Shown here in pieces: positions 4,399 to 35,544 of a stretch of DNA of 39,825 nucleotides; positions within the stretch are counted from its first letter, which is position 1; each line of letters starts with the position of its first letter. The stretch spans positions 1-39,825 of the IMG/VR virus record IMGVR_UViG_3300049825_000366. The stretch is one strand, 5' to 3'. This stretch comes from a virus. The position numbers were made by a program, and so were the translations under genes. The notes below the pieces were generated by a model. That model was not told the origin of the DNA and made no database searches. It saw only the letters and a program-made list of their open reading frames with translations.

Positions 4399-4679
4399 AA
4401 AGCGCCATAATTGCAATCACTACGATTTCAGTAGATGCTACAGCCTTTGTTCCTTTGCCTGCGCCTACATACACTAGCTGGCTTGAGGCAGTAAGTAGTA
4501 CTGACTGGTTATTCCGGTCTGATGACACTGACTCTGCAACGGAACAGCTAGTAATGGCAGGAGCTAGCTTTATAATAGCCTGTAACAATTGGTTTCACAA
4601 AATGGCCCCAGGAGAAGCAATTGGCTTCGCCAAAGCGGTCACAGGGACAATCACAGTAACACTTAAGGGGACACGATGA
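4395..4679 (+). CDS. Hypothetical protein (94 aa)
   Basis: The start is GTG 4395, which overlaps the small-terminase stop as GTGA; its own stop overlaps the next ATG as ATGA. It ends TVTLKGTR, like a small beta-domain. It lies directly before a fibre-like exported protein and may be its partner (inference). Codon use is more AT-rich than in the terminase genes. Confidence 0.6.
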   Translation: MKSAIIAITTISVDATAFVPLPAPTYTSWLEAVSSTDWLFRSDDTDSATEQLVMAGASFIIACNNWFHKMAPGEAIGFAKAVTGTITVTLKGTR

Positions 4680-5878
4680 GATTTGTCCTGCTGTTACTCG
4701 CAGCACAAGTACTAGCACAGAACACCGCTGTTGATATTCGCCGCGTTGGTGGAGTCTCGGTGAATGGGGCTACTGGTCTACTGGTGAACTGCCCAACCTG
4801 CTCGGGGGGTGGCGGCGGTGGTGCGGTGACCCAGAGCGGCACTTGGGTAGTAGGGCAGAGTGGCGCGTGGAACATGAGCGTGTTGAACTGGCCTTCATCG
4901 CAACCTGTGACAGGGGCTTTCTGGCAAGCGACACAGCCCGTGAGCGGGACCTTTTGGCAAGCGACACAACCAGTTAGCGCCTCTACTCTACCTCTACCGT
5001 CAGGTGCGGCAACAGAGACTACCTCAGCAGCTATCAGTGGTAAACTCCCAACAGTGCTCGTGAATGGTCGTCTATCTGTTGATGGGTCAGGTGTTACACA
5101 GCCTGTTAGCGGAACAGTGACCACAACACCTCCCTCGAACGCAAGTACTAACGTCTCCCAAATTGCAGGCACCACAGCGGACACCAACAGCGGAGTCAAG
5201 AGTGCTGGTACATTACGGGTGGTGTTGGCAACGGATCAGCCGCAACTCACGGCTAAGCTCCTCGTCACACCTGACTCGGTGGCCTTACCAGCGAACCAAT
5301 CGGTGAACATGGCACAAGTTGGCGGCACGACTGCAGTGAATGGCGGGGTTGCCGGTAGTTTGGCAGTGGGCGGCAACAACACCAATAACACCGCGATCAC
5401 TCAGAATCCAGTCCTCACAGGAATCGAGGCTCTCTCAACGCAGCCAGCCGCAGCCACGACTGGAAACCTTCGACGCCTCGTTGGAGCACTCGATGGTGCC
5501 TTATACGTGAGACCGGGTGGTCCAGTGTCGTGGTCGTGTGGTTTGGATAACCTTGGAGCAACCCTGACTGAGTGTCGGGCCGCTCCGGGGGCTGGCTTGC
5601 GGTTGTACATCACAGACATCGTAGCGACATCGACGACAGCGACAGCCGGACAGTTCTTACTAAGGTTTGGCACAGGCACCAACTGTGGTACAGGTACGGC
5701 TTCCTTGTACCCATCCGCTGCCACAGTCGTAAGAGTGCCATATCCAGGAAATACTGTTGCCCCCTTCATGGTAGCTATGAATACTCCACTAGCGGTTACC
5801 GCGAATAACGCTCTATGTGTACTCGCTACCGCAGTCAACACGCTTACAATCCAAATAAATGGATACACAGCTCCTTAG
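4676..5878 (+). CDS. Fibre-like protein with Sec signal peptide
   Basis: The protein has 400 residues. Residues 1-15 form a short signal peptide with a hydrophobic core and a VLA-Q cleavage site. A Gly run (about 43-49) is followed by repeats of the FWQATQPVSG type (two 11-residue copies near residues 82-98, also visible as a 33-base DNA repeat at 4922-4968) and a LPLPSGAATET segment. These are familiar from phage tail and fibre proteins. The C-terminal 130 residues look like a compact beta-domain. Six cysteines remain after cleavage. A phage fibre would normally fold in the cytoplasm, so the signal peptide is odd. It may be an exported receptor-blocking or surface protein. Confidence 0.7.
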   Translation: MRFVLLLLAAQVLAQNTAVDIRRVGGVSVNGATGLLVNCPTCSGGGGGGAVTQSGTWVVGQSGAWNMSVLNWPSSQPVTGAFWQATQPVSGTFWQATQPVSASTLPLPSGAATETTSAAISGKLPTVLVNGRLSVDGSGVTQPVSGTVTTTPPSNASTNVSQIAGTTADTNSGVKSAGTLRVVLATDQPQLTAKLLVTPDSVALPANQSVNMAQVGGTTAVNGGVAGSLAVGGNNTNNTAITQNPVLTGIEALSTQPAAATTGNLRRLVGALDGALYVRPGGPVSWSCGLDNLGATLTECRAAPGAGLRLYITDIVATSTTATAGQFLLRFGTGTNCGTGTASLYPSAATVVRVPYPGNTVAPFMVAMNTPLAVTANNALCVLATAVNTLTIQINGYTAP

Positions 5879-5886
5879 GAACCCTT

Positions 5887-6315
5887 ATGATTAACTATCA
5901 GCTCATCCCCGTGTTCGCCGACTTCTTCTGGTCGCCTGAGACCAAAATGCTGTACTACGAGAGTGGGCTTCCGGTGGGCCGTAGCACCTACGAGCGCCCG
6001 CTCAGCAAGAACCCCTGGTACAACTTCTGGTCCCCGCCCAGGTACCTGAACCCTTCGATGTACGCCACCGACATCACGGCGATGACCGTGAAGCTGTGGG
6101 CGAAGGAGCGCTTCCCCTCACTCGATTTCAGTATGGAGTATCCTGCGGTCACCGGCGACGTCAGCCATCCGATGTTCTTGCTCGTCGTTAGTAACGGTCA
6201 GAAGTCGGAGCGGTACAACGCCGGAATGATCGCGTTCGCCCGCGACAAGAACGGTGAACAGGCAGCCTATGTCAGTTTTGACGCCGAGCTTCGCCTCGCT
6301 CGAATCCTCTCCTAA
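5887..6315 (+). CDS. Hypothetical protein (142 aa)
   Basis: The start ATG at 5887 is preceded by the bases AGGAACCCTT, the same ten that precede the start at 10043. The protein is rich in aromatic residues, with an N-terminal FFWSPETKMLYY section and a C-terminal alpha/beta section. No signal peptide, membrane segment or known catalytic motif is seen. It lies six bases before the large terminase gene. Confidence 0.65.
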   Translation: MINYQLIPVFADFFWSPETKMLYYESGLPVGRSTYERPLSKNPWYNFWSPPRYLNPSMYATDITAMTVKLWAKERFPSLDFSMEYPAVTGDVSHPMFLLVVSNGQKSERYNAGMIAFARDKNGEQAAYVSFDAELRLARILS

Positions 6316-6320
6316 GCCTT

Positions 6321-7853
6321 ATGCAACTTCCCTCGTCCACCAACTCCTCGTCGGCCCCGCCGGGTGCCACACTCGTGGATGTCAGTGAGCTGGTCATGCT
6401 TGCTGCCTCCGACGGGGAGCTTTTTTGTCGGACGTTCTTCCCCAAGGTGTTCAGGCAGGAGTCCCCAAGCTTTCACAAAGTACTGTGGGACGACTGGCGA
6501 GATCCCTCGTGCGAGCTAACCGCCGATTCGGTGTTCCGCGGTGGTGGCAAGACAACCCTCATTCGTGCGTTCATCCTGTTCAGTGCTTGCTACGGGCTCT
6601 CCCGCACGATCTTGTATGCAGCGGCAAGTGGCACGAAGGCTGACGAGAGCGTTAACTGGATACGTCGCATCGTTGAAGGTAGCAGTGAGAACGGCACCTT
6701 GCTCGCCCGCACCTTCGGCCTGCGTCCTGGCTCAAAGTGGAACGACGAGCGTATTGACATCGTGCACGAAGGACTCGGGCACACTGTGAGCATCATCCCC
6801 GCAGGCATAACTAGCGGCATCCGTGGCCTGAACATCGAAGGGTATCGACCCGACCTCATCATCCTGGACGACATTCAGACCGAGGAGAACGTCGGCACCC
6901 CTGAGCAGTTGCGCAAAACCAACGAGGTAGTCTACGGCAGCATTCGTAAGACGCTCGCCCCAAGGTCAGAAGCCCCCAACTCTCGTATGATTATGGCACA
7001 GACCCCGATGAAGCCTCGGGATATCATCAGCCAGGCCGAGCAGGACCCCGAATGGCGGTTCCGTCGCTTCGGTATTCGGGACGACGCCGGTAAGTCTCGA
7101 TGGGAGGCACGCTTCCCCAGTGCACAAATTGACGCCGAAGAGCGCGGAGCAAGTGCTCGCAACCAATGGGCACTGTTCGCCCGAGAGTCGCTGTGCATTA
7201 ACGTCCCTGACGAGGGTCAGTACTTCCGTGAGAGCGATCTACGGTTCTACGAGAACGCCCCTGAGCGAATGGTCATCGCCTACGCAATTGACCCAGTGCC
7301 TCCGCCGAGCGCCGCGCAGATCGAAAGTGGCCTCGCTAAGAAAGACTACGAGGCACACGTGGTCGTAGGTATCACCCCTGACCGCGACGTGTACGTGCTC
7401 GAGTACGCTCTCAGCAAGAACCATCATCCGGACTGGTCGAGCACCAAGCTGTTCGAGCTCGCTGGAAAGTGGCGTCCCCTGCGTGTTCGCATTCACGCTG
7501 TCGCTTACGAGGTCACCCTGAAGTGGTACTTCGAAGAAGAGATGAAGAAGCGCGGAACCTTTCACGTGGTTGAAGCCTGGAAAGACCAGCGACCGAAGCC
7601 CATCCGCATCCGGCAGAGCCTGAGTGCCTTGGCTGCACACGGCAAGCTGTACGTGAAGCGCGGCATGACCGAGTTCCTGCAACAGTGGGCGATGTACCCC
7701 GGAGTGGACCATGATGACCTCCTTGACTCGACGGCGACCGCGGTGAGCCTCGTGCTCGAACTCGCCGCAAACGCCGATATGGACGACCTGTTCGGAGTTG
7801 CGGACAGCGGTGCAGCGGCGCAGCTTCCCGTCGGCTGGAGACGCTGCCCATGA
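6321..7853 (+). CDS. terL: Terminase large subunit
   Basis: The protein has 510 residues, normal for the family. The ATPase domain shows a Walker A-like FRGGGKTT (about 72-79) and Walker B LIILDD (about 179-184) followed by an acidic catalytic region. The nuclease domain shows an AIDPVP strand (about residue 320) and, near the C-terminus, DHDDLLDSTA with the metal-binding aspartates. It packages DNA through the portal encoded next; the genes overlap as ATGA. The ATP motor pumps DNA and the nuclease cuts concatemers. Confidence 0.93.
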   Translation: MQLPSSTNSSSAPPGATLVDVSELVMLAASDGELFCRTFFPKVFRQESPSFHKVLWDDWRDPSCELTADSVFRGGGKTTLIRAFILFSACYGLSRTILYAAASGTKADESVNWIRRIVEGSSENGTLLARTFGLRPGSKWNDERIDIVHEGLGHTVSIIPAGITSGIRGLNIEGYRPDLIILDDIQTEENVGTPEQLRKTNEVVYGSIRKTLAPRSEAPNSRMIMAQTPMKPRDIISQAEQDPEWRFRRFGIRDDAGKSRWEARFPSAQIDAEERGASARNQWALFARESLCINVPDEGQYFRESDLRFYENAPERMVIAYAIDPVPPPSAAQIESGLAKKDYEAHVVVGITPDRDVYVLEYALSKNHHPDWSSTKLFELAGKWRPLRVRIHAVAYEVTLKWYFEEEMKKRGTFHVVEAWKDQRPKPIRIRQSLSALAAHGKLYVKRGMTEFLQQWAMYPGVDHDDLLDSTATAVSLVLELAANADMDDLFGVADSGAAAQLPVGWRRCP

Positions 7854-9769
7854 CCAAGAACAAGTTCACGATCCCCTTCGACTCGGAGCGGCACCGCACC
7901 ACGCTCTCTCGACTAATGCGCCTGTTCCGCATGAGCCGGGATCGTATGACAGAGCGACACTCGGCTTGGAAGAAGGCAGAGGATCTGTTCCGTGCGTACC
8001 TTCCAGAGACCGAGGTAAGCCGGAAGCAGTCGGCCTCGATCGAGAAGGGCGGCAGCGAACTAAAGCAAGTGTTCATCCCGTACTCCTACGCGATGGCCCT
8101 GACGACCCATGCGTACGCGACTAGCGTGTTTATTGGAAGGGACCCGGTGTGGCAGTATCAGGGCAGGCACGGAGAGACTCAGCAGAGCGTGCTGTGCCTC
8201 GAAGCCCTCATGGCCTACAATCAGACTGTTGGCGGACTCGCAGTGCAGCAGTTTGTGTGGTTGCTTGACCCACTGAAGTACGGCATAGGGGTCGTGACGA
8301 GCGACTGGGAAAAGCAGGTCGAGACCTTCAGCGAGTTCCAGCAGGCGAAGGAAGAGCTTGGCGGGGTCGCCTTTGGTGAAGACAAGTGGGACCTCGTCGA
8401 GGAAATGGTCGAAGGGTACTGCGGGAACGTCCTACAGAACGTTCGCCCCTACGATTTCTACCCCGATCCTCGTGTGCCTCTAGTTGACTTTCAGAAGGGT
8501 GAGTTCTGCTCACACACAACGCTGAAGAATCTCACTGCTCTGAAGTCGATGGAAGAGGCACTCGACCTTTTCAACCTGGAGGAACTGCAGGCCGGCATTG
8601 GCGGAGAGATGAAGCCCTCGGAGGACGGCAGCCGGGACAACATGCTCGCCGCACAACAGGTGTGGAATAGTGCCGACCTAAAGGCGGGCGGCGTTGGCCT
8701 GTGGCGAGTAGTCGTTGATCTTATCCCTAAGGACTGGGGACTCCCGACGAAGTTCAACACAAAGCAGAAGTGGGAATTTCTCGTCGCCAACAACAAGTGC
8801 ATTGTGCAGGCACGGCCCCTGGGGCTGCGGCACTGCAAGTTCCCCTACGACGTAATCTCCTACGAGGTCGACGGGTACGACGTTAGCACTCGTGGGATGA
8901 TGGAGATCACGCGCCCACTGAATGAGGTCATGAACTGGTTGTTCAACACACACTTCTTCAGTGTGCGACGGTCTCTCAATGGGAACATGATCGTCGATCC
9001 TAATAGGGTGAACATTAAGGATCTGATCGACGGTGGTCCTGGCCGCATCGTGCGTTTGAAGCCAGAAGCCTACGGCACCGACGTGCGCAGTGCGTTTGCC
9101 GAGATGCTGAACGTGGACCCGACGAGAGGGCACCTTGGTGACAGTCAGTACGTTGCCGGTCTCAGTCAGATGCTCGCCGGCTCGAACGACACCCTCATGG
9201 GGAACCTTGGTAAGGGCAGGAAGACGGCGACCGAAGTGCGGTCGGCGGCCTCGTCCGGCATGGGCCGTATGAAGACCTACTGTGACTTTGCCTCGGCCTT
9301 GGGTTGGTCGCAACTCTCTCGTAAGATGATAGCTAACTGTCAGCAGTTCTACGATGGGACTAAGATGTTTCGGATCGCCGGTGATCTCTTCGAGGGCACG
9401 AAGTTCGTTAACGTGGACAAGTCACTGATCACAGGTGAGTTCGACTGGGTGCCGGTCGATGGCACGCTTCCGGTCGACAGGTTCGCGCAGGCCACCTTGT
9501 GGAAAGAGATTATGATGGGCTTGGCAAAGAGCCCTCAGCTTGCAGCAGGCTACGACATGACTAAGATCTTCGCGCACATGGCGAAGCTGGCCGGCCTGAA
9601 GAACATCGATCAGATGCGCTTGCAAGTCGTGCCGGACCAAGTGGCGCAGCAAATGATGCAAAGTGGTAACGGAGTGCCCCTCGGGGCAGGAGGTGGTTCG
9701 GGTGGATATCCAGGAGACTCGCCGAGCGCAGCAATTGGAAGTATGGTCGCAGGAAGTAACGGAGCTTAG
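7850..9769 (+). CDS. Portal protein
   Basis: The protein has 639 residues. It follows terL directly, contains the long mixed alpha/beta core with many conserved aromatic and Pro residues found in portals of short-tailed phages, and ends in a Gly/Ser-rich tail. The segment RPYDFYPDPR (about residues 198-207) is the typical portal motif of this group. It forms the dodecameric ring at the capsid vertex that binds terminase and later the adaptor (18397) and nozzle (19041). The start overlaps the terL stop. Confidence 0.88.
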   Translation: MTKNKFTIPFDSERHRTTLSRLMRLFRMSRDRMTERHSAWKKAEDLFRAYLPETEVSRKQSASIEKGGSELKQVFIPYSYAMALTTHAYATSVFIGRDPVWQYQGRHGETQQSVLCLEALMAYNQTVGGLAVQQFVWLLDPLKYGIGVVTSDWEKQVETFSEFQQAKEELGGVAFGEDKWDLVEEMVEGYCGNVLQNVRPYDFYPDPRVPLVDFQKGEFCSHTTLKNLTALKSMEEALDLFNLEELQAGIGGEMKPSEDGSRDNMLAAQQVWNSADLKAGGVGLWRVVVDLIPKDWGLPTKFNTKQKWEFLVANNKCIVQARPLGLRHCKFPYDVISYEVDGYDVSTRGMMEITRPLNEVMNWLFNTHFFSVRRSLNGNMIVDPNRVNIKDLIDGGPGRIVRLKPEAYGTDVRSAFAEMLNVDPTRGHLGDSQYVAGLSQMLAGSNDTLMGNLGKGRKTATEVRSAASSGMGRMKTYCDFASALGWSQLSRKMIANCQQFYDGTKMFRIAGDLFEGTKFVNVDKSLITGEFDWVPVDGTLPVDRFAQATLWKEIMMGLAKSPQLAAGYDMTKIFAHMAKLAGLKNIDQMRLQVVPDQVAQQMMQSGNGVPLGAGGGSGGYPGDSPSAAIGSMVAGSNGA

Positions 9770-10046
9770 GGCTCGCCAACGTGACCTGCAAGCGCTTGGG
9801 TCGGCACCAGGTTGGGTCTGGATACGGACTCATCTGCGAGCGCGGGCCCGTATGATGAAGGACGACATCGTGAGCAAGCCCTTAGTGGGGGAGCACGCAC
9901 GTATGGCTCCCTTTAACCAAGGGCTGGCCACCGGGCTCGCCCTCGCCGCGGACAGTGCCGTGCATGAGATAGAGCAGATTGAGTATGAGATCGGGCAAAG
10001 GCTCGATGCAATTAGACAGGAACAGGAACAAGAGGAACCCTTATGA
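9702..10046 (+). CDS. Small helical head protein (114 aa)
   Basis: GTG 9702 is chosen because an AGGAGG ribosome site lies 8 bases upstream, inside the portal coding sequence. The gene overlaps the portal end by 68 bases and the next gene by 4. The protein is charged and helical throughout (WSQEVTELRARQRDLQAL; HEIEQIEYEIGQRLDAIRQE). Its position between portal and scaffold suggests a scaffold-associated or head protein. No family is recognised. Confidence 0.7.
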   Translation: MDIQETRRAQQLEVWSQEVTELRARQRDLQALGSAPGWVWIRTHLRARARMMKDDIVSKPLVGEHARMAPFNQGLATGLALAADSAVHEIEQIEYEIGQRLDAIRQEQEQEEPL

Positions 10047-10948
10047 ACAACTGGTACGTGAGACGATTGCAGGAAGAGGCCGGAGACGCTGACGGTGGAG
10101 GTGGCGCACCTGTCCCTGTTGTGAGCGCAGAACCTGCAGCACCTGCACCTGCCTCGCCCTCAGTGCACATGCAGGATGACGGCGGGACGCTCTCAGACAT
10201 GCTGGACTTCCGAACACAGGGACACGGTACCGCACCTACGCCGGTTCCGGTACCATCCCCCGTTGTTGTAGCTCCTGCGGTCACACCTGCTCCTGTGCCC
10301 GCGCAACCACAAGCTACACAGCCCGCTCAAGTGCCGCAACAAGTGCCTGCCACACAGGTGCAGCAGACGCCTCCTCAACAGTTCGCACCACAACAGGACC
10401 CCGGAGAGCAGGCCCAGCGTTATAACGCGACTCGTGAGGCGGCAATCCCGCAAATCGCAGCTCGCTACCAATTCACCGACGAGCAGAAGATGGCCTTGCT
10501 CACCGAACCCGAGACCGTCCTCCCGACGATGGCGGCTCGGATCATGGTCGACGCCTACGAGAGCGCAGTCGGCGTGCTCACACAGATGCTTCCTGGACTC
10601 ATCCAGAGCATCTCACGCGAGAGCAACATTGTGCAGTCTCGCGAGGAACAATTTTGGAAGGTTAACGCTGACCTACGCGACAAACCTCAGGACATAATCG
10701 CCCAAGTCGCACAAACTTACCTACGTGTCAATCCGCAAGTCTCCGCGGAGAAGGCAGACCGGGAGATCGGCACACTGGTTCGCCAGTTGCTAGGCATCGC
10801 TCCCCCAACTCCCACGGCGCCCCAAGTGCCTGTGGCTAACCCGCTCGTCGCACGCACACCACTCGGTGTCGCCGCGATGGGTGCGCCCCCAGTACTCGGA
10901 GAACAGGAATCAGTCCTGACCGACATGCTGAACTGGCGCAGAAACTAA
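10043..10948 (+). CDS. Capsid scaffolding protein
   Basis: The protein has 301 residues. About residues 20-130 are Pro/Ala/Gln-rich and disordered, and about 140-250 are helical and charged. Two copies of a short motif bracket the protein (LSDMLDFR near residue 50 and LTDMLNWRRN at the very end). The duplicated motif may be the capsid-binding element (inference). The gene lies between portal and major capsid protein, the standard place for a scaffold, and has no catalytic motif. It is expected to leave or be degraded when DNA is packaged. Confidence 0.8.
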   Translation: MNNWYVRRLQEEAGDADGGGGAPVPVVSAEPAAPAPASPSVHMQDDGGTLSDMLDFRTQGHGTAPTPVPVPSPVVVAPAVTPAPVPAQPQATQPAQVPQQVPATQVQQTPPQQFAPQQDPGEQAQRYNATREAAIPQIAARYQFTDEQKMALLTEPETVLPTMAARIMVDAYESAVGVLTQMLPGLIQSISRESNIVQSREEQFWKVNADLRDKPQDIIAQVAQTYLRVNPQVSAEKADREIGTLVRQLLGIAPPTPTAPQVPVANPLVARTPLGVAAMGAPPVLGEQESVLTDMLNWRRN

Positions 10949-10960
10949 GGAGACACACAC

Positions 10961-12160
10961 ATGGCGTTTTTTGCAGGTATTCGAGACACTGGCGACTGGG
11001 GGACCGGGGAGCGTCCCCAGAGCTATCGGGGCAACATCCTCATGCTGAATCCCAACGGGCGGATGCCCTTGTTCGCATTGACGGACAAACTCAGCAGCGA
11101 GAAGGTAGACGATCCGCAGTACCACTGGTGGAATGAGCGGAACACGGTGATTCGCCTCACGATGAATGCGACGGCGATCACGACCTCACAGACCCTCACG
11201 GTTGCGAGTGGGGCTCTTCAGCTTCGCCCTGGCCAAATTCTCAAGGTCGATGTGATCGGCACGGCAGAGCCCTCCTCCTACATCGGGGCCAACGTCGAGA
11301 TGATGTACCTGTCGTCTGTCACCAGCGACACGGTAGTCGTCGTCAAGCGCGGTCAGTTCGGTACCACGCCGGTCGCCCTCACTACGGGCACTACGTTCCT
11401 AACTGCCCTCGGTACGGCCTTTGGTGAGAACTCACTGCCGCCCTCGTCGGTCACCAACAATCCGACGAAGTACACCAACTACACGCAGATCTTCCGCACG
11501 AACTTCGGTCTGTCTCGCACCGCCGATCAGACCTTTGCCCGCACCGGGGACGCCTACAAGCAAGATCGGGAGCGCGCACTGTTCGCCCACGGCCGGAACA
11601 TAGAGTTCCAGTTCTTGTACGGTCTCGCCTCGGAGGGCATTGACGCTTCCGGCTTCCCGATTCGCACCACCGGCGGCATTCGCTCCTTCCTCACCTCGAA
11701 CGTCACCATCTTCCAGACGACGCCGACCGAGAACACCTTCTTGGACGCCACGTATCCCATCTGGAACTATGACACGCGCGCCGGTGACGAGCGCCTGTGC
11801 TTCTGCGGCAACGGCTTCTTGAACTCTCTCAACAAGATGGCCACCAGCGCCCCCAAAACGCAGATCGTTCAGACCGAAGTCGTCAAGATGTACGGGATGA
11901 ACCTGAACACTTGGCAGCTTCCGCAGGGCAAGCTTGGGTTCAAGACCCACCCGCTGATGAACAACCACGCGCAGTACAACAATGCTGCCTTCATCCTTGA
12001 CCCGACGGCCCTGAAGTACCGGTACCTGCAGGACACGAAGTTCGTGAAAAATCAGCAGACTCCGGGTCAGGACGGTATGCTCGACGGATGGCTGACTGAG
12101 TGCGGGCTCGAGGTCTTGGCCGAAGAGACCTGCGCCTACATCGGTAACTTCGTGGTCTGA
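10961..12160 (+). CDS. Major capsid protein, SU10/N4gp56-like
   Basis: The protein has 399 residues. The N-terminal RDTGDWGTGERPQSYRG and the SRTADQTFARTGDAYKQDRER helix (about 186-206) match the pattern of the SU10-type capsid family (DUF5309), which has the HK97 fold. A strong AAGGAG site lies 8 bases before the ATG. It directly follows the scaffold gene. Four cysteines are present, far fewer than in the exported proteins downstream. It forms the icosahedral or prolate shell. Confidence 0.85.
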   Translation: MAFFAGIRDTGDWGTGERPQSYRGNILMLNPNGRMPLFALTDKLSSEKVDDPQYHWWNERNTVIRLTMNATAITTSQTLTVASGALQLRPGQILKVDVIGTAEPSSYIGANVEMMYLSSVTSDTVVVVKRGQFGTTPVALTTGTTFLTALGTAFGENSLPPSSVTNNPTKYTNYTQIFRTNFGLSRTADQTFARTGDAYKQDRERALFAHGRNIEFQFLYGLASEGIDASGFPIRTTGGIRSFLTSNVTIFQTTPTENTFLDATYPIWNYDTRAGDERLCFCGNGFLNSLNKMATSAPKTQIVQTEVVKMYGMNLNTWQLPQGKLGFKTHPLMNNHAQYNNAAFILDPTALKYRYLQDTKFVKNQQTPGQDGMLDGWLTECGLEVLAEETCAYIGNFVV

Positions 12161-12175
12161 CGAGAAGAGGTGACT

Positions 12176-12913
12176 GTGATCTACAAGGATGAAAGGGTGC
12201 TGCCGGTGAGGGCCTCCGCAAAGGTCCTCATTGGCTTCCCAACAACGGGGCTGTGGTCCGACCAGTTCGGCATGGCCTTGTGCAACATGTGCATCAGTAC
12301 GATGCAGCGGCGGCCCGACATCGAGCTCGCCGTTCTCAACGAGAAAAGCAGCATGTTGTGGGTGACTCGGCAGCACCTGTGCGAGGTGGCCGCTGAACAC
12401 GGCTTCTCTCACATTCTGTTCGTAGACACAGATCAGAGCTTTCCCTCATCGTTGTTGGCACGGCTGCTCTCACACGAGAGGGCAGTCGTCGCCTGCAACA
12501 TTGCGACTAAGGTCGAGGCACCACACACGCAGGAGACTGCGGTGACCTCCTACGACCCGAGCACGCGCACGGCGACCGGCTGTGAGCGCACCACCGGACT
12601 CGAGCGTGTTTGGCGCGTCGGCACCGGTGTCATGCTCATCCGCACGTCTGTCTTCAAGGACATTGCAAAGCCCTGGTTCCCTGTCACGTGGCTCGAGAAT
12701 GAGCAACGGTGGGTGGGAGAGGACTGGGGATTCTGTGAGAAGCTTGAGAAGGCTGGCATTCCAATCTGGGTCGATCACGATGCGAGTGCACTCATTGGGC
12801 ATTGGGGGCAGAAAAATTTCACCTTGCCTAGGTACGAGCAAGCTCAGCACAATCGTCCCCTTATCATTGACCCCAGGACTGAGGCTACACGCCTCGTAGA
12901 GGTGCGAGGATGA
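12176..12913 (+). CDS. GT-A fold glycosyltransferase-like protein
   Basis: The protein has 245 residues from GTG 12176, chosen because AGAAGAGG sits five bases upstream; a GTG at 12170 is also possible. It shows a nucleotide-binding start (VLIGFPTTG), a DxD metal motif in LFVDTDQSFP (about residue 85), a GTGVMLIR segment, GEDWGFCEKL (about 180-189) and a final HWG. These are in the order of phage and bacterial GT-A glycosyltransferases. It would transfer a sugar from a nucleotide sugar to a virion protein or host glycan. It opens the accessory block between capsid and adaptor genes. Confidence 0.72.
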   Translation: MIYKDERVLPVRASAKVLIGFPTTGLWSDQFGMALCNMCISTMQRRPDIELAVLNEKSSMLWVTRQHLCEVAAEHGFSHILFVDTDQSFPSSLLARLLSHERAVVACNIATKVEAPHTQETAVTSYDPSTRTATGCERTTGLERVWRVGTGVMLIRTSVFKDIAKPWFPVTWLENEQRWVGEDWGFCEKLEKAGIPIWVDHDASALIGHWGQKNFTLPRYEQAQHNRPLIIDPRTEATRLVEVRG

Positions 12914-14184
12914 AGAAATTCTTATTTTGGCTGTGGGTGTTCGCTCTCGGTTACTTAGTAAGTGCACAAACACAGCTCACGATTTCGTTCACTGCGACGG
13001 GCACAGCTAATGCGATCGTCGGGAACCCTATTTATGCTGTGAGTTCGTATGCAGCAATGGCTTCCGCAGTACCACCGGTGAAGGCGTGCTTCATCGCAAC
13101 GCTGGCCAATACGTCGGCTACTACGCTGTCAATCAGCGGGCACGCAGCTAAGGCTGTGGTGACTGGGGTGAGCACGGCGCTCACTGCGAACACGATTCTC
13201 GCCGGTCAGTACGTGTGCGTGACTTACAGTGCAGCGAACGATAACTTTCAGATGCAGACAAGTGTCGGTGGTGGTGGTGGGGGTACTGGTGACGTAGTGG
13301 GGCCGGCATCGGCACTCGACAACGAGGTCGTGGTATTCGACAGTACGACCGGGAAGCTCGTGAAGCGCGGCACCGGTTGCACCTTGGCCTCAAGTACGAT
13401 CACCTGCACAGGTGGCTTCATAGCCGGAGACGGCACGAAGACGAGTGGGTCAGTGTTCTCAGAGCTCACTGCGAATGGCTCGAATTATTCGGCACTCTTC
13501 GCCAGGGACTCCTTGGCGGCGGACTCCTGTTACTTCCTGCCTAGCGCGGTGGGATCGAGCGGACAGGTGTTGAGCGACAGCGGAACCACAGCGGTGACGA
13601 CAGAGACTGTACCTAAGACCTGTCGCATACTGTCTTGGGTAGCAAGCGGGAGTGGTGGGTTGGATCTAAGTACGACCGGCCATTGCTTCTTCCTGGACGG
13701 CTGCGTTTATCCCGCTGCCTCGATTTCCACGTTCGCCACGAACGCGAATGTCACTTACATGGTTCAGGTGATTATCCCAGCGACGGTCAAGCGGGGAGCG
13801 GCTAAGATATACGTGTACGACGGTGGGACCAGTGTGCAAGCTGCAGCATTTGGTATTTACGCCAATTCCTCCGATGCGCCGGGAGTGCAACTGCAGGCGT
13901 TTAGGCTGGTGGGGTGGAATGCCTCGGGGTACTTTTCTGTCACTTTGGACGCGGCAACTCAATCGGCGGGGGTATTTTGGTTGGCCTGGGCCGCAGAGGT
14001 CAACACCTTGCGAACGGTCACTAGAGTGGCCGGAGATAGCTTCCTTGGTAACAACGGTCCACGCATGGTAAGTTGCAGCAACCCTGTGCAGGGAGCAGGT
14101 GCAACTTATGCTCTGCCGACCACGTGTGGAACAGCCTCAGCCGAAGGGAACGTCACAGCCCCGATTGTTATGCTTGTTCCGTAG
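12910..14184 (+). CDS. Fibre-like protein with Sec signal peptide, Cys-rich
   Basis: The protein has 424 residues. Residues 1-19 form a clear signal peptide (MKKFLFWLWVFALGY... with an SA-Q site). After a Gly run, GDVVGPASALDNEVVVFD (about residues 127-144) is the short motif common in phage tail fibres and virion decoration proteins. The remainder is beta-rich. The mature part contains ten cysteines, several in near pairs (GCTLASSTITC; HCFFLDGC), which suggests disulphides formed outside the cytoplasm. ATGA overlap with the glycosyltransferase suggests joint expression. Confidence 0.72.
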   Translation: MKKFLFWLWVFALGYLVSAQTQLTISFTATGTANAIVGNPIYAVSSYAAMASAVPPVKACFIATLANTSATTLSISGHAAKAVVTGVSTALTANTILAGQYVCVTYSAANDNFQMQTSVGGGGGGTGDVVGPASALDNEVVVFDSTTGKLVKRGTGCTLASSTITCTGGFIAGDGTKTSGSVFSELTANGSNYSALFARDSLAADSCYFLPSAVGSSGQVLSDSGTTAVTTETVPKTCRILSWVASGSGGLDLSTTGHCFFLDGCVYPAASISTFATNANVTYMVQVIIPATVKRGAAKIYVYDGGTSVQAAAFGIYANSSDAPGVQLQAFRLVGWNASGYFSVTLDAATQSAGVFWLAWAAEVNTLRTVTRVAGDSFLGNNGPRMVSCSNPVQGAGATYALPTTCGTASAEGNVTAPIVMLVP

Positions 14185-14198
14185 GAGAGAAAATACTT

Positions 14199-14489
14199 AT
14201 GAATCGTATAGCATTCTTTACTGTCTTTTTTGCGTGGCTGACTTCAGCTTTTGCGCAGAGCTCAAAAGTGTACAAGGTGGGACAATGCCCAATCTGCGAC
14301 ACGCCTGCACCCAAAAAGCCGTTTGCCAATTTCGCCACAACTAAGGGTGCGTGTACCACAGCATCTCTAACGCCGAGAGCGATGAGACGAGATCTTCCTG
14401 CTAACGTTGTATTTCATCCTGAGACAGAGTGCTACTGGCAGTCGACAGCCTGTCCAACATGCCTGAACGTGTACCTCAATAAGCTGTAA
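14199..14489 (+). CDS. Small Cys-rich exported protein
   Basis: The protein has 96 residues from ATG 14199, with AGGAG 11 bases upstream. Residues 1-20 are a textbook signal peptide (MNRIAFFTVFFAWLTSAFA, then Q). The mature 77 residues contain six cysteines, including CPIC and CPTC pairs near the two ends. Redox-active CxxC or metal binding is possible, but no thioredoxin fold is visible. It lies between two large signal-peptide proteins and may be a chaperone, adaptor or disulphide partner for them (inference). Confidence 0.65.
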   Translation: MNRIAFFTVFFAWLTSAFAQSSKVYKVGQCPICDTPAPKKPFANFATTKGACTTASLTPRAMRRDLPANVVFHPETECYWQSTACPTCLNVYLNKL

Positions 14490-14494
14490 TTCCT

Positions 14495-17400
14495 ATGAAA
14501 TCACTCATTCGAATCTGCGGGTGCGGACTATTCGTGCTCCTGTGGGTGCTTGCCTTCGTGCCTACCGCGTTTGGTCAGACCACGGTGTACCTGCCGAACC
14601 CAAACGTGGGGTTTTGCAACATCACAGGGGTGAGTACGGCGAGCCCCGCGGTCATCACCTACAACGGCAACTGCGCGATAGTGAATGATGACATCATCCT
14701 GATAGACGGCGTGATCGGTGCGACCGCGATCAACATTCGGCTCGACACGCCGACTGATCTCAATAACCTGTATCGGGTTGTAAAGAACCGCACGTCAACA
14801 ACGTTCACGGTTACTGACGGAGGCGGCACTGCCATCAACGGAACCGTGCATGGATCTTGCGCGGGTGCGGCCTCCACTCACGCCGGGAACTGCGCCTACG
14901 TGGAGGGCGGATATTTTGCCAAGGCGTCCAGCTACACGCTGCGTGATCACCCGCGCGGCCTTTTCGACGGGCCAGGGGGCACGGAGACCGTACGTCTGCT
15001 CACCGGAGGAGCGGGAGCGGATGTGACGGCAAACTTCACCCGCGCTCAGATGCGGGCTCATTGCACGGCTCGCAAGGCACTCGCGAATCAGTTCGCACGA
15101 GGTATGGGAACTTATGGGACCTCGGGAGCGCTGGCTTGCGCGATGGTGTGGAAATTGGATGGGGACACAGCGGCCCGCGACGTGGCGCTGTATGACCTTA
15201 GAAATCCTGAGCAACTAAATTACGGGAGCGGGAGTTGTGACTCGACTCTCGCTTGGTGCGGTGGATCGGTGAGCAGCGTCGGTGACTACCCGATGCACTA
15301 CGGTCGCACCTTCGACTATGCCTACACTCTGATGCAGGATCTTCTTACGACACCAGAGAAGCAGCGCATTATTGACGTATTTTATTCGGATTACGCTTGG
15401 CCCAAGGGAGGAAGCAGCCCGCTGTCAACGGCAACTGTGACTGGGCCGCTGGCGTGGAGAATCGCATCTCCAGGGGTTGGTACCTACTCGGACGCTGGCG
15501 GATCTGCCACGATCACGGGCAGTGGAACGTCCTGGAGTGGCGTGGTCCAGGTTGGGGATCTATTTTTTTCCGACGTTACCGATTATGCTGTCTCCCGCAA
15601 GGTTACAGCGGTAGCCGGAGAAGTGTTGACATTGGAGTATGGGTTTGGGTCGGCTCACTCAGGCTCAGCTTACTACATCGCTCGACCGTTCAACACTGTT
15701 ACGAACGGCGGACTTATTTTCTTATCAAAGCATTACCCCATTGGCCAGTGGGGAGGCGGCAACGGTCATCAGTACAGAAAGGCCTTTGGAATCCCCGCTG
15801 GTGGCGACGGGTATCCCAGTCCCTACTACGGGGGGATATCCGCGCAGAGTCATCTCTACAACAGCATCGACGGCAATGCCAATCTGATGCAGGTGTACGG
15901 GCGGGCCATCAAGGGCCTAACCTACGCGAACGTGGACAATCAAGCCAAGCTGGACTTCAGCCGCGCGGAACTCGCCTTCGTGACCCAGGCTCTTCCATTT
16001 CAGTTGGGCACCTGGGGTGGACCTAACGGAATGGCTAGCGTATACAATTTCGAGCGCGGCTGGGAACCCGCGCTGGAACATGCAGAGGTCCTGAAGCGCT
16101 CAGTTATCTCCTACCCAGATCCGTACCCGACGAGCTTCTACACCAACGCACTCAAGACGGTCATGGCCACGAAGCTCCCAGGGTCTAACATGATGCAGAC
16201 CTTATTTGAGAACGGCAACTTGGGCTTCTCGGGGCGGCAACTGTGGGGGACGGGAGTGGCATTATCCAGGAACCCGACCAGCAGTCTGGCATTACAGACC
16301 AACGGATTCCTGCTTGGCGAACTAAACATCGACGGCGCAGGCAACGACGGGGCACCGTTCATCAGCGATGACCAATGGACTGCGCCGCTCTGGTACATGC
16401 TGTACAATCACACTACGGGATCGACCACCCCGACTGACCTCACCTGGTCTCTCGTGCCTGACGTGGCGACCTGCGTAGCGAGGTTTAGCGCCGCCGAGTG
16501 CTCGACTTACTTCCGCGACGAGCGCAAGATGCTCATCAGCCGAACGACACAGAACACGACAGCCACGTACTGGTCTGTGGACTACTCCGGTTTTGCTTGC
16601 CGCGACCACTGCGCTGGCGGCCTGGGCGGTTGGCAGTCCCTGACGATTGGCAATGTTCCGCTGATCTCGGGCGACTCTTACAGCGGCTTTGGCACCTACC
16701 GCAGAGGGCAGGCCGGGTACATCGTTCCTCCGCCCCTTCACGCCGGTGTCGATTTACTGAGTGGTGATCCTAATCTAGCTACTCTGTGGTATCCAAGCTG
16801 GGCTGGTTTCCAGAGTTTGTCCGGTGGGAATAATAACTATGCCTATGCCCGGATGGAGCGTTCGCCTAGTTACGCAGCCGCGGCGAATATCACTAGCGCT
16901 ATCACCGATCACGCGCACTTTAAAAAAGCCAGCGAGCAGGACTACATCATTCAGCGCAGCACGGTTGTGAACACAAGCGCGCAAGATGTGCATCAAGTAG
17001 AACAGATGGCGTTGTACGACACGCTTGGATCGCTCACGCAGACCTGCGGAACGCCAACCAGCAACACCTGTGTGACGCTATCGAGTAGCAGTAAGACCGT
17101 GTCCAACGTCAAGGGGACCAAGCGCCTGAACGTGGTGCCTATCGGATTCTCGCACGGGATTCGACTTGCCACGCCGAGTGGCACCGACTCCAACGGCTCT
17201 TACACCAATGGGGTCGGCTACACCTTTCAGTACTATATCTGCCCTTCCGGGGATGGTGGCTCGACTTGCGTATCGGCCACTAACCAGGAATGGTTCACCG
17301 TGTTCGAGCCATCGAACTCAGCCTCAACCGGCTTCCCCACCGTGGCCACATTCGGCACGGCTGGCAACTGGCACGGCGTGCTGGTCACCAGTGCGGCGGG

Positions 17401-17698
17401 CGGCATCCGCAAGGCACTAGCTGTTCACGATGCGACCATGACTCCCGTGCAGACCTCGGCGTCATTTACCCTGGCATCCGGCCCGGCTCAAGTAGTCGTC
17501 GCTGGGTTGGTGGCTGGCACCTATACCCTGTCGAGCGGCGGTACGCCCGTGTGCAGCTCGGTGGTGGTGTCGGCAGGCGACAACTCGCTGGAGTGTTCTG
17601 CGGTTTCGGCTGGCGCGATCACCGTAGCCGTAAATGGCGGTACGGTAACCCGTCACCAGGGCACGGTGCGAGCCACTGGTAAAGCTCAGCTTAAGTAG
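14495..17698 (+). CDS. Large exported polysaccharide-lyase-like protein (heparinase II/III-like)
   Basis: The protein has 1067 residues. Residues 1-27 are a signal peptide ending AFG-Q. About 28-115 is a beta domain resembling short domains at the front of phage tail proteins. About 130-600 is mainly helical with many Trp, Tyr and Gly, as in an alpha/alpha toroid, and is interrupted by a beta insertion at about 310-400. About 650-950 is beta-rich, with the pattern DYSGFACRDHCAGGLGGWQSL and a GDSYSGFG turn, like the core of heparinase II/III-type lyases. Eighteen cysteines remain after cleavage, many in close pairs. It probably cuts host capsule or exopolysaccharide. The exact family is unconfirmed. 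Confidence 0.6.
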   Translation: MKSLIRICGCGLFVLLWVLAFVPTAFGQTTVYLPNPNVGFCNITGVSTASPAVITYNGNCAIVNDDIILIDGVIGATAINIRLDTPTDLNNLYRVVKNRTSTTFTVTDGGGTAINGTVHGSCAGAASTHAGNCAYVEGGYFAKASSYTLRDHPRGLFDGPGGTETVRLLTGGAGADVTANFTRAQMRAHCTARKALANQFARGMGTYGTSGALACAMVWKLDGDTAARDVALYDLRNPEQLNYGSGSCDSTLAWCGGSVSSVGDYPMHYGRTFDYAYTLMQDLLTTPEKQRIIDVFYSDYAWPKGGSSPLSTATVTGPLAWRIASPGVGTYSDAGGSATITGSGTSWSGVVQVGDLFFSDVTDYAVSRKVTAVAGEVLTLEYGFGSAHSGSAYYIARPFNTVTNGGLIFLSKHYPIGQWGGGNGHQYRKAFGIPAGGDGYPSPYYGGISAQSHLYNSIDGNANLMQVYGRAIKGLTYANVDNQAKLDFSRAELAFVTQALPFQLGTWGGPNGMASVYNFERGWEPALEHAEVLKRSVISYPDPYPTSFYTNALKTVMATKLPGSNMMQTLFENGNLGFSGRQLWGTGVALSRNPTSSLALQTNGFLLGELNIDGAGNDGAPFISDDQWTAPLWYMLYNHTTGSTTPTDLTWSLVPDVATCVARFSAAECSTYFRDERKMLISRTTQNTTATYWSVDYSGFACRDHCAGGLGGWQSLTIGNVPLISGDSYSGFGTYRRGQAGYIVPPPLHAGVDLLSGDPNLATLWYPSWAGFQSLSGGNNNYAYARMERSPSYAAAANITSAITDHAHFKKASEQDYIIQRSTVVNTSAQDVHQVEQMALYDTLGSLTQTCGTPTSNTCVTLSSSSKTVSNVKGTKRLNVVPIGFSHGIRLATPSGTDSNGSYTNGVGYTFQYYICPSGDGGSTCVSATNQEWFTVFEPSNSASTGFPTVATFGTAGNWHGVLVTSAAGGIRKALAVHDATMTPVQTSASFTLASGPAQVVVAGLVAGTYTLSSGGTPVCSSVVVSAGDNSLECSAVSAGAITVAVNGGTVTRHQGTVRATGKAQLK

Positions 17699-18396: not shown

Positions 18397-19044
18397 ATGG
18401 CTACTGCAGGTGATTTGGTGACGCTGATCGCGGGGAGGCTAGGGAATCGTACCGGGCTCGACGCGACTATCCTCGCCGAGATGATCGCAGCTCAGCGAGT
18501 GCTCGAAAAAAGCCCTCCGTACCCGTGGTGGCTCGCAACAGTGTGGAGTGCTGGGATTTCGGCAGCGTCAACACCCTTGACCTCGTTAGGCTTCATTGAG
18601 TTTGTTGAAGACAGCCTGTTTGTGTTAGGACCAACTGGTGGTACTGCATACTCACCCCCAAAACCGTTGTCGGGTAGCCACTGGCAGCACGCTTTTCAGG
18701 CTGTTCTAGATAGAGGGCGTATCCGGAATTACACTCTCATTGGAGACACCGCATACTGGAACCCCTCTCCTGATGTCGCATATGATGTTAAGGGTATTAT
18801 GTACGTGAAGGACACTGTGATCGCCAACACGTCGACATCAAACTTGTGGACCAACCAGGGGGACGATCTGCTTATGGCTTACACAGGGTTTGAAGTTGCC
18901 TCGTCCCTGCGCGACATGGGAGCGATGGAACGTTTCGCAGGCAGTAAGCAGGTCGCACGCGCTCGAATGAGTAGTGAGAACACGAGTCGGCTCGAGAGCA
19001 TGAGGCAGGCGATGATTGCAGCGGGTGAGGACGCCCGATTATGA
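18397..19044 (+). CDS. Head-tail adaptor protein
   Basis: The protein has 215 residues with an AGGAGG site before ATG. An N-terminal helical part (TAGDLVTLIAGRLGNR, then an AAQRVLEKSPPYPWW turn) and a C-terminal helix pair with Arg/Met-rich ends match the adaptor of SU10- and P22-like short-tailed phages. It overlaps the nozzle gene by four bases (ATGA). It would dock on the portal ring and carry the nozzle. Confidence 0.72.
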   Translation: MATAGDLVTLIAGRLGNRTGLDATILAEMIAAQRVLEKSPPYPWWLATVWSAGISAASTPLTSLGFIEFVEDSLFVLGPTGGTAYSPPKPLSGSHWQHAFQAVLDRGRIRNYTLIGDTAYWNPSPDVAYDVKGIMYVKDTVIANTSTSNLWTNQGDDLLMAYTGFEVASSLRDMGAMERFAGSKQVARARMSSENTSRLESMRQAMIAAGEDARL

Positions 19045-20561
19045 GCATGGTGACGGTGGATTTCCTTGGGCAGACTGGTCTCATAAAGGACAGAAAGCCT
19101 TACGACCTCGGCCCTGAGTTCTTCACCGACGCACTGAACGTCGCCTTCGAGGAGGGTGAGGCTCGCAGTAACATCAACTGGCAACCGATGCTTAATCTCG
19201 CCGCGTTTGGCGCCTACGGCTTGTTTTATGTGCATTCTCCATTGACCCGCTACTGGGTGATGACAGGACTCGCAGGCATCAAAAGCATCTCGGACACAAC
19301 AGTAACCGTTAGAACACGAGGGGCTGGCCCGTACACAGGAGGCGGACTCGACTTCTGGAACGGGGGCATGTTCAACGACATCCTGATCCTGAACAACGGT
19401 ATTGACAAGCCACAGTCGTGGGATTTGCCAGGTGGGGCTGCGTTGCTCGTCGATCTGCCGAACTGGCCTGCAACTGTCAGGGCAAAGGTCGTTCATCCCT
19501 TCAAGAACTTCCTCGTCGCCCTGAATGTGAGTAAGGCAGGCGTTCGTGACGATCGTATGGTCAAGTGGAGTCACATCGCCGCACCCCTCACAGTACCAAT
19601 TTCTTGGGACGAAACAGACCCCACAATCGAAGCGGGGGAGATCACTCTGTCTGAGGGCGAAGACGTAATCGTAGATGGGCTCGTTGTAGGGGATCAATTT
19701 GCAATCGGGACTAACAATCAGACGTGGGCGATGCGGTTCGTTGGTGGTCAGGACGTGTTCGCCTTTCAGAAGGTATTCGGAGAGGTCGGGCTGCTCACCC
19801 AAGGCGCCTGGACAACATTTCTCAACAAGGTATTTCAAATCACTGCAGACGACTTCATTGTACATGATCTAAACAGCTTGGAGAGCATAGGCTCTGGCTC
19901 GGTGCGACGGTGGTTTTTTGACCAGCTCACAACCACCAACTACCCGTATGTGAGAGTTGTTAGGAAGGTAAGCGCCAAGGAAGTTTGGATACTGCTACCA
20001 GGGGCAGGGGTTACCTATACGACCTTAGCGCTCATCTGGAACTGGCAGTTTAACACGTGGAGTCTTCGTGATGTGCCTGCCACGTATGCAGTAGCGTCTG
20101 GGTATACGACTGATTCCACGGCGACTAACAAGTTTAAGGACAGGTTAGGTTTGGTCTCGACGGCACCTTACTTGCACGAGCATATCGACACGCATGTGAG
20201 TGGGCTAGTGAACCTGACCTACGTTGAGCGTACCGGGCTGGCGATTAAGGCAGGGGGCGACGGGAAACCTGCAATAGACCATGGCTCGATAGCAGTGCTT
20301 CGAGAGTTCTGGCCCAAGATTGACGCAGCTGACGGTGAGGTCTTCGAGATTACGATCGGCTTTCAGCTGTTTCGACACGATCCGGTGACGTGGCTGCCCG
20401 TCAAGTACTTCACTGTGGGAACAGATCAAAAGGTTACTGCGTGGGGATCGTATCGGTACCTCGCGTATCGAGTAGCTCACACCAACAGTGGAGTAGGCGC
20501 GCAGGTCCCTTGGCGGTTCCTTGGGTTTGAACTTGACCTCGACATGTCAGGGAATTTCTAA
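19041..20561 (+). CDS. Tail nozzle / stabilisation protein
   Basis: The protein has 506 residues. The sequence FNDILILNNGIDKPQSWDL (about 112-130) is a hallmark of the beta-propeller nozzle proteins (P22 gp10-like, T7 gp12-like role). The rest is regular beta-rich blades with Trp and Gly turns and without cysteines. It would plug and extend the adaptor as the tip of the short tail. A second ATG at 19047 could be used. Confidence 0.78.
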   Translation: MSMVTVDFLGQTGLIKDRKPYDLGPEFFTDALNVAFEEGEARSNINWQPMLNLAAFGAYGLFYVHSPLTRYWVMTGLAGIKSISDTTVTVRTRGAGPYTGGGLDFWNGGMFNDILILNNGIDKPQSWDLPGGAALLVDLPNWPATVRAKVVHPFKNFLVALNVSKAGVRDDRMVKWSHIAAPLTVPISWDETDPTIEAGEITLSEGEDVIVDGLVVGDQFAIGTNNQTWAMRFVGGQDVFAFQKVFGEVGLLTQGAWTTFLNKVFQITADDFIVHDLNSLESIGSGSVRRWFFDQLTTTNYPYVRVVRKVSAKEVWILLPGAGVTYTTLALIWNWQFNTWSLRDVPATYAVASGYTTDSTATNKFKDRLGLVSTAPYLHEHIDTHVSGLVNLTYVERTGLAIKAGGDGKPAIDHGSIAVLREFWPKIDAADGEVFEITIGFQLFRHDPVTWLPVKYFTVGTDQKVTAWGSYRYLAYRVAHTNSGVGAQVPWRFLGFELDLDMSGNF

Positions 20562-29847: not shown

Positions 29848-30249
29848 CTAATCGTGCCAGGCTTGCAGAATAGCTAGGATCTGAGCAGGGTCGTTCTCGA
29901 CCCAACGCAGGTGAGGATTCCAGAAGAATACCTTACCAAGCTTGCGTTCGCCCACCATGAAGATGGGCTTGTCGAGAGCGAGTGCGTAGCCTAGCTCAAT
30001 GTGCTTGCCCAACCCTGGACGGGCGCCAACCGGCTCGACGAAGTAGAAGAACACCGAGCAGGCACGGATGTCCGCGAGGTCGTGGGCCTGTGACAAGATA
30101 GAACCGGCCGGCGTCACTGTGTGCTCCTCGAGCTGTGTGGTGATCCACCGAGGGACCCCCCAACCTATTTGATAGATTTGCTCACAGAGACTAAGAAAAG
30201 GTTCGTCTCGACGAGCTTCGAAGTTGTGGGCGAGATAGACGAGGGACAT
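29848..30249 (-). CDS. Nucleoside 2-deoxyribosyltransferase-like protein
   Basis: The protein has 133 residues from ATG 30249 (TGATG overlap with the gene before; GAGG eight bases upstream). It begins with the SLVYLAHNF strand, has DLADIRACSVFFYF (about 57-70) and GLGKHIELGYALALDKPIF (about 79-97), where the Glu corresponds to the catalytic residue of the family. Such enzymes cleave or exchange the base of deoxynucleosides or deoxynucleotides. In phages they may recycle or remove host nucleotides or feed modified-base synthesis. The substrate cannot be read from the sequence. Confidence 0.72.
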   Translation of the reverse strand: MSLVYLAHNFEARRDEPFLSLCEQIYQIGWGVPRWITTQLEEHTVTPAGSILSQAHDLADIRACSVFFYFVEPVGARPGLGKHIELGYALALDKPIFMVGERKLGKVFFWNPHLRWVENDPAQILAILQAWHD

Positions 30250-30470
30250 CAACTTTTCCTCTTTTCTGCTTCTACTATTAGCTCAATCGTAGTACGAAGC
30301 TCCGCGCGATCACGGCGAAGCTCGTTGCACTCCTGCTGTAGTGCCTCGAGTAAGCCAGCGTCGTTTTCCCCGACTTTCACGAGTGCATCGACACGTTGCC
30401 ACTCGACGAGGTCTGCTGGAAGTTCAGCTACTATCCGGAGAATGTTCTCAGCGTTTTGTCTAGTCATCAT
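30249..30470 (-). CDS. Small coiled-coil protein (73 aa)
   Basis: Two ATG codons open the gene at 30470 and 30467, one base after the polymerase stop. Residues 5-30 are helical (NAENILRIVAELPADLVEW) and 37-73 form a charged coiled coil (LLEALQQECNELRRDRAELRTTI). A longer reading into the polymerase gene is possible but looks non-coding. No family is recognised; it may be a partner of the polymerase or of the transferase encoded next. Confidence 0.62.
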   Translation of the reverse strand: MMTRQNAENILRIVAELPADLVEWQRVDALVKVGENDAGLLEALQQECNELRRDRAELRTTIELIVEAEKRKS

Positions 30471-33491: not shown

Positions 33492-33652
33492 GCTCTTGGT
33501 CCCGTCTTTTTCAGTTCTATCTTATTCTCCATCAAGCAAGGCGTGTCATGACCAAACGCATAAGAGGAAAAGCATTTTTCACAACGCTTCTCTTTGCGCC
33601 CATTAGCCATCTTTACAGTTTCCCACACATGCTTGAATTCAGGTTCTTTCAT
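33488..33652 (-). CDS. Small zinc-finger-like protein (54 aa)
   Basis: The ATG at 33652 overlaps the stop of the methyltransferase gene (ATGA), and its stop overlaps the next ATG (ATGA). GGAGGAG lies five bases upstream, one of the better sites in this arm. Residues 24-39 contain CEKC, then a His at 35 and a Cys at 39, a possible CCHC zinc knuckle, flanked by basic residues (NGRKEKR). Nucleic-acid binding is likely but untested. Confidence 0.6.
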   Translation of the reverse strand: MKEPEFKHVWETVKMANGRKEKRCEKCFSSYAFGHDTPCLMENKIELKKTGPRA

Positions 33653-34950: not shown

Positions 34951-34964
34951 GATTACCTTCATAA

Positions 34965-35010: not shown

Positions 35011-35544
35011 CTAGGGCCAAAGTCCCCCTAGTCCGCTGCCGTACCGCAGCAGAAGCAGGGCTATGCCGATGCCGACGAGGTGCAAGGTGCCTGGCTCGGG
35101 CACCTCCCCCGACGGTGGATCACCGATGAACACCGATGGCAGGGTGAAAGTTGTAGTGATCGAGGCCGAGACGATGGTGAACAACGTGCCGTCTGCCGTG
35201 GGTGTGAGGTTCATGGTGACGAGCTGCGGCCCGCTCACACAGAACCCACCAGTGTGCCAACACACCTTGTCGGCTGTGTTGGTGTACGTGAGGTCCCCTG
35301 CGGCAAAGGGCTGCAAAAGCTCGACGCCGGTGAGCGTGAACTGACAGTGATCGGCGGCACCCCCAGCGCTGATTGTCGGCCCTGCGATCTCGATGTCGAG
35401 TGGTGAGGTGTGAGTGTTCGGAGGGAACTCCTTGCAGGTGACTGGTACCTGGGTGAACGCCGTGCCCCAGACAGCGGGCGTGAGCAGACTTCCTCCGATG
35501 ATGTTTGCGCACAGCAGTAAGCTGCTCGCGAGTAGGTTTCGCAT
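35011..35544 (-). CDS. PEP-CTERM surface protein with signal peptide
   Basis: The protein has 177 residues. Residues 1-25 are a signal peptide (MRNLLASSLLLCANIIGGSL). The mature domain is beta-rich with four cysteines. The C-terminus shows VPEPGTLHLVG, a hydrophobic helix (IGIALLLL) and an Arg, the PEP-CTERM signal recognised by exosortase. AAGGAG lies 13 bases before the ATG, and the gene is preceded by a 113-base non-coding gap, so it stands apart from the coupled cluster like a moron. It is expected on the host surface or secreted after processing. Exosortase would come from the host. Confidence 0.75.
   Translation of the reverse strand: MRNLLASSLLLCANIIGGSLLTPAVWGTAFTQVPVTCKEFPPNTHTSPLDIEIAGPTISAGGAADHCQFTLTGVELLQPFAAGDLTYTNTADKVCWHTGGFCVSGPQLVTMNLTPTADGTLFTIVSASITTTFTLPSVFIGDPPSGEVPEPGTLHLVGIGIALLLLRYGSGLGGLWP

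Follow-up and report, generated by a model that had tools for sequence, protein, structure and literature searches.

Predicted Sec-exported, cysteine-rich proteins in the virion operon of a podovirus-like virus as candidate adsorption parts

Textbook assembly of tailed phages is cytoplasmic, so neither export signals nor a reliance on disulphides would be expected of tail proteins. The virus considered here (an IMG/VR virus record of 39,825 bases, analysed over its whole length and called the window below; G+C ~58%) raises the question of what four cysteine-rich proteins with apparent Sec signal peptides are doing in a virion operon. If adsorption proteins are Sec substrates, a tailed phage would have a second assembly compartment.

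Family matches and the order of its genes mark the window as podovirus-like; its replication genes are on the strand opposite to the virion operon. On the plus strand lie a podovirus-type portal gene (7850..9769; Pfam SU10_portal, 1.4e-16), the major capsid protein gene (10961..12160; phrog_1328, 2e-37), which is the left landmark of the slot discussed below, and the nozzle gene (19041-20561; phrog_3287, 6e-83). A glycosyltransferase-like gene (12170..12913, plus strand; phrog_1574, 8e-15) separates the capsid gene from the export cassette, and near relatives keep it at the same place behind their capsid gene. The adaptor (18397-19044, plus strand), which directly abuts the nozzle, the terminases (3901 and 6321), the scaffold (10043), and the ejection-type genes (up to 28312) were assigned from gene order and matches in relatives. 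By portal, the nearest isolates are Microcystis phage Mel-JY34 and Vibrio phage VS-ABTNL-3, followed at a greater distance by Caulobacter phage Kuura and a Desulfofustis phage; the gene orders of all four are similar to that of the window. No obvious endolysin or spanin was seen among the window proteins scanned; the products of 17708/17768 and 18137 resemble membrane proteins of a lysis module. The minus strand encodes a ParB-like N-terminal domain fused to an N6/N4 DNA methyltransferase (33649-34962; Pfam 1e-21) and a nucleoside deoxyribosyltransferase-like protein slightly under the Pfam cut-off (29848-30252).

A preliminary description of this DNA had assigned typical Sec signal peptides to the genes at 4676, 12910, 14199, and 14495. 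All four open reading frames are present at these positions on the plus strand, and they score 7.4, 6.7, 6.9, and 7.3, respectively, on a home-made heuristic over the n-, h-, and c-regions for which Escherichia coli proteins served as controls (OmpA 8.0, DsbA 8.1, Bla 7.1, MalE 7.5, PhoA 6.5; low scores for the LacY membrane helix, 4.8, and EF-Tu, 1.1). The highest score among the remaining virion-operon genes is 5.3, for a membrane protein. Chance hydrophobic N-termini were ruled out, as a score of at least 6.7 was reached by none of 2162 internal pseudo-N-termini of window proteins and by one of 9000 from relatives. Each of the four has a basic n-region, an uncharged hydrophobic core, small residues at −3 and −1, and no cysteine at +1, as befits a substrate of Sec and signal peptidase I. 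Cleavage is predicted after MRFVLLLLAAQVLA in the 4676 protein, after YLVSA in the 12910 protein, and after TSAFA in the 14199 protein, always before Gln; for 14495, the site after VPTAFG was chosen by eye, the top site of the score lying 7 residues upstream, and with this placement the claimed Gln at +1 is found in 4/4. Lipoproteins of the spanin or exclusion type were rejected because none of the four has a lipobox and Gln takes the +1 position each time. A misassigned start codon seems improbable, as 14495 uses the first start after a stop and retains its signal, though that start is without a clear Shine-Dalgarno sequence upstream. We find the prediction of Sec/signal-peptidase-I signals in these four genes convincing.

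The mature parts contain 6, 10, 6, and 18 cysteines (in the order 4676, 12910, 14199, 14495), exactly as first described. The accompanying claim that neighbouring assembly proteins are free of cysteine is true of the nozzle, but not of the portal (7), terL (5), the capsid protein (4), or the glycosyltransferase-like protein (6). Of the signal-bearing proteins with at least two cysteines, a set picked by signal score and not by cysteine content, 25 of 28 have an even mature count, vs 416 of 765 (54%) other operon open reading frames (Fisher 1.5e-4). A hand count without the window's four proteins and without the L106 orthologues of L105 proteins (two relatives described below) gives 18/21. Cysteine content is 1.67 per 100 aa in signal-bearing proteins vs 0.65 in controls. 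Even counts and raised content are both as in disulphide-bonded periplasmic proteins, the bonds themselves being predicted. Taken together, signal scores, Gln at +1, cysteine parity, and recurrence in relatives support Sec export and oxidative folding well.

In Bacteroidota, the ‘Q-rule’ describes Gln exposed as the new N-terminus after cleavage (PMC5837995), and the window's four proteins conform to it (4/4, with the 14495 site by eye). Gln at +1 does not fix the host, because it is also common in a sample from Acidobacteriota: it occurs in 9 of 23 predicted signals of a Granulicella tundricola plasmid (L182, L230-L232), compared with 1 of 10 in E. coli. An acidobacterial host would fit the Gln at +1, the ~58% G+C, and a possible PEP-CTERM protein. 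The last is a fifth candidate exported protein of 177 aa overlooked by the preliminary description (35011..35544, minus strand), with a weak N-terminal signal (score 5.2) and a C-terminal PEP-CTERM-like motif that reaches 20.0 bits for PF07589 (cut-off 20.7) and 15.4 for TIGR02595 (cut-off 16). No PEP-CTERM was found in the records of L105, L106, L150, L158, L022, and L098, and a phage-encoded exosortase substrate would be unusual.

The first protein (4676..5878, plus strand; 400 aa, signal 4676-4717, mature N-terminus QNTAVD) carries the ‘FWQATQPVSG’ repeat module of phage proteins. One relative, L150_10869 (32% identity over 147 aa, 6e-5), also has a signal, which is missing from the matching proteins of L173/L174, L177-L181, L087, and L088. 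The second (12910..14184, plus strand; 424 aa, signal 12910-12966, mature N-terminus QTQLTI) contains at residues 127-155 a tail-fibre module, ‘GDVVGPAS.LDN..V.FD.TTGKL’, that recurs with 65% identity over 29 aa in L055 and in similar form in L137. With a module common to relatives in 12910 and a repeat known from signal-free phage proteins in 4676, the view that two of the four look like fibres is supported. The third (14199..14489, plus strand; 96 aa, signal 14199-14255, mature N-terminus QSSKVY) has CPIC and CPTC motifs among its cysteines, no match to a Pfam, PHROG, or NCBIfam family, and no relatives found; lying between two large exported proteins, it may serve as a clip in the structure or help in redox chemistry. 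The fourth (14495..17698, plus strand; 1067 aa, signal 14495-14575, mature N-terminus QTTVYL) resembles at residues 43-117 a module of a phage tail tubular protein B, by a weak tblastn match to Pelagibacter phage HTVC035P (41% over these residues, E 0.01), and is otherwise unassigned. Its proposed identity as a polysaccharide lyase found no support, as Pfam, PHROG, NCBIfam, and PDB sequences gave no match. Across the four proteins, the tail modules are short, family matches are weak, and no attachment domain was recognised. Phage-collection searches with 12910 and 14495 at the DNA and protein levels yielded nothing useful except one weak module, PDB sequence searches gave chance matches only, and AlphaFold2 models made without an alignment were uninformative (pLDDT 35 for 12910 and 32 for 14495).

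The positions of the genes are informative in themselves. The 4676 gene lies between terS and terL, and the other three follow the capsid gene and precede the adaptor. Both places, the terS–terL gap and the capsid–nozzle slot, are variable among relatives and are where these have their tail fibres. A fibre with a recognisable anchor domain (‘MGLE...GDDHLRLLK’) is present in 55 of the 59 relative loci that hold both capsid and nozzle genes, loci that are not all independent and from which the anchor profile itself was built; the window gave no meaningful match to the anchor HMM. The anchored-fibre gene stands beside the adaptor in most relatives, whereas in the window the adaptor abuts the nozzle and no such gene was found. 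Since the closest clade (70–72% capsid identity) has an anchored fibre in this slot and no signal-bearing one, the window's set looks like a replacement, and the signal-bearing trait is patchy. Two near relatives encode instead a medium-sized signal-bearing protein after the nozzle (L098:16371-16991 and L101:16840-17367).

Because direct scans of viral contigs with 14495 and 12910 found no relatives, these were gathered through capsid protein searches, and ~190 non-duplicate loci were scanned. Large signal-bearing proteins occur in the virion operons of L004, L022, L044, L049, L050, L063, L067, L080, L084, L105, L106, L148, L150, and L158. Several match tail families: a tail spike in L004 (1e-17), pectate-lyase-like plus tail fibre in L050, a tail family in L067, and a Phage tail repeat in L105_15827 (42 bits); L158_10570 has a weak acetylesterase match. 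The four-gene arrangement that the preliminary description had suggested seeking in other viruses has a counterpart in L105 and L106, which have in common an orthologous signal-bearing cassette of four genes whose signals are retained in 4/4 pairs at about 28–40% identity. The trait is not universal, as a further 27 non-duplicate relatives of L106 had no additional convincing large signal-bearing fibre proteins; four isolates examined had no signal-bearing fibre. L107 has several breaks in its capsid, portal, and fibre frames and looks like a frameshift-rich assembly.

Some of these loci place a signal where an anchor would be expected. In L105 and L106, the anchor gene encodes only 121 and 124 aa, the shortest of 48 pattern matches, and the gene after it encodes a signal-bearing protein with a terminal part like the collar-like ends that one-piece fibres have (1e-3 by blastp; by profile comparison, probability 75 and E 2.6e-5). 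L150_12440 consists of a signal peptide followed by a phrog_14820 domain, which in the non-exported fibres of L207 and L020 stands behind the anchor phrog_6465, and L158_8633 has a domain in common with anchored fibres (2e-11). As predicted from these sequences, the same domain is thus found with and without export, and L150, L158, and the 4676 repeat are natural comparisons.

We suggest, at roughly even odds (a probability of about 0.5), that the four genes encode Sec-exported adsorption parts that fold with disulphides in the periplasm and are joined to virions at lysis. This reading draws on the authentic-looking signals, the tail modules in at least two of the mature parts, the location in fibre slots, and the absence of the anchored fibre. 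The parts would be fibre or spike subunits and one small cysteine-rich partner, made as Sec precursors; the host Sec translocon would export them and signal peptidase I would cut before Gln. Folding and disulphide formation would then take place in the periplasm, beyond the reach of the cytoplasm, where the capsids and stub tails would be put together. Once the cell lyses, the two sets of parts would meet and the exported ones would dock, giving a disulphide-stabilised adsorption apparatus. In other phages, free fibres or spikes dock on finished particles outside the cell. Such a route would account for unusually cysteine-rich environmental phage fibres and would alter the annotation and production of such genes. 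We hold more tentatively, at a little under an even chance, that two compartments are used for virion assembly in some tailed phages, the trait having arisen repeatedly by exchange of an anchor for a signal or by a split of the fibre gene.

The alternative that survives best, possible although not probable, is that the proteins are exported but do not become part of the particle: tail-fibre modules would then make up soluble adhesins, or enzymes that modify the cell surface. Before or at lysis, they could occupy receptors of the infected cell as well as those on debris, bringing superinfection exclusion and less wasteful re-adsorption, or thin the exopolysaccharide. The evidence for export (signal scores, cysteine parity, Gln at +1) is identical for this alternative. 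L150, L158, and L022 have a full-length anchored fibre alongside signal-bearing proteins, with fibre domains in those of L150 and L158, so the exported proteins are possibly extra there; the weak acetylesterase match of L158_10570 and the Q-rule signal proteins encoded by Porphyromonas gingivalis phages (PMC10367356) point the same way. However, the window is without any other recognisable fibre, the anchor of L105 and L106 is shortened just upstream of a signal-bearing collar protein, and a comparable pair of genes in a Bradyrhizobium phage (below) occupies the usual main-fibre site. Where the preliminary description had offered both release ahead of lysis and surface parts matured in the periplasm, the comparative evidence favours the second. 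Were the proteins absent from the particle, they would still be phage-made exported receptor binders, relevant to exclusion and adsorption.

It is improbable that the four are host-derived cargo (morons) for secreted proteins that landed in the tail slots and have nothing to do with the virion: the patchy distribution, the host-adapted look of the signals, and the want of clear phage relatives of 14495 and 14199 agree with such an origin, but 4676 and 12910 contain fibre modules, and several lineages use the same slots, including the orthologous L105/L106 cassette and the relatives with tail families. Least probable of all is that the N-terminal hydrophobic segments are retained, unprocessed membrane or assembly anchors, a reading to which the heuristic nature of the signal score gives some room but against which stand the AXA-type sites, Gln at +1 in 4/4, the bias to even cysteine counts, the raised cysteine content of the mature parts, and the same domains without the segment in other phages.

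Turning to known systems, a literature search in which most subscription journals were outside the scope returned no description of Sec-exported tailed-phage fibres, and no named system like the window's four-gene set was found in searchable papers; we do not claim priority. A paper on the AlgoCIS injection system was considered as a precedent and set aside, its ‘signal peptide’ being just a reference title. Filamentous phage coat proteins are virion proteins with cleaved Sec signals, but they are inserted in the membrane and belong to non-tailed phages that are extruded through it. T5 Llp is a phage lipoprotein for superinfection exclusion; lipoproteins of this type resemble the window's four as phage products that are exported and might act at receptors, but they have a lipobox, whereas the four have no cysteine at +1 and are mostly far larger. 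The phages of P. gingivalis encode Q-rule signal proteins of unknown function that are likewise Sec substrates with Gln at +1, but these are not described as parts of a virion or fibre (PMC10367356). Anchored podovirus fibres (with a phrog_6465 N-terminus; Mel-JY34 and VS-ABTNL-3 have a similar gene order) occupy the same genomic slot and have C-terminal domains in common with the signal-bearing proteins of L150 and L158; they differ in having no signal peptide, few cysteines, and anchor and fibre in one piece.

A likeness is also seen in a cultured phage, ppBdUSDA122-1 of Bradyrhizobium diazoefficiens USDA 122, in which two adjacent signal-bearing genes lie directly 3' of the gene for a large tail protein; spontaneous phage release is reported for soybean bradyrhizobia (PMC10127595). 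WAX24264.1 has 482 aa and 6 Cys; WAX24263.1 has 865 aa, a predicted mature start at residue 23, 18 mature Cys, a Collar domain (40 bits), and matches to tail-fibre PHROGs. The record annotates WAX24263.1 only as a tail fibre and its neighbour as a hypothetical protein. In a Rhizobium phage, a fibre whose N-terminal module is related begins at about the mature start and has a signal score of 0.9. With the window's set, the pair have in common signal peptides, many cysteines in even number, a tail-fibre position, and genes in a row; they differ in coming from an unrelated, long-tailed temperate phage and in having a typical collar domain. With such genes in a cultured lysogen, the question raised by the window can be tested now.
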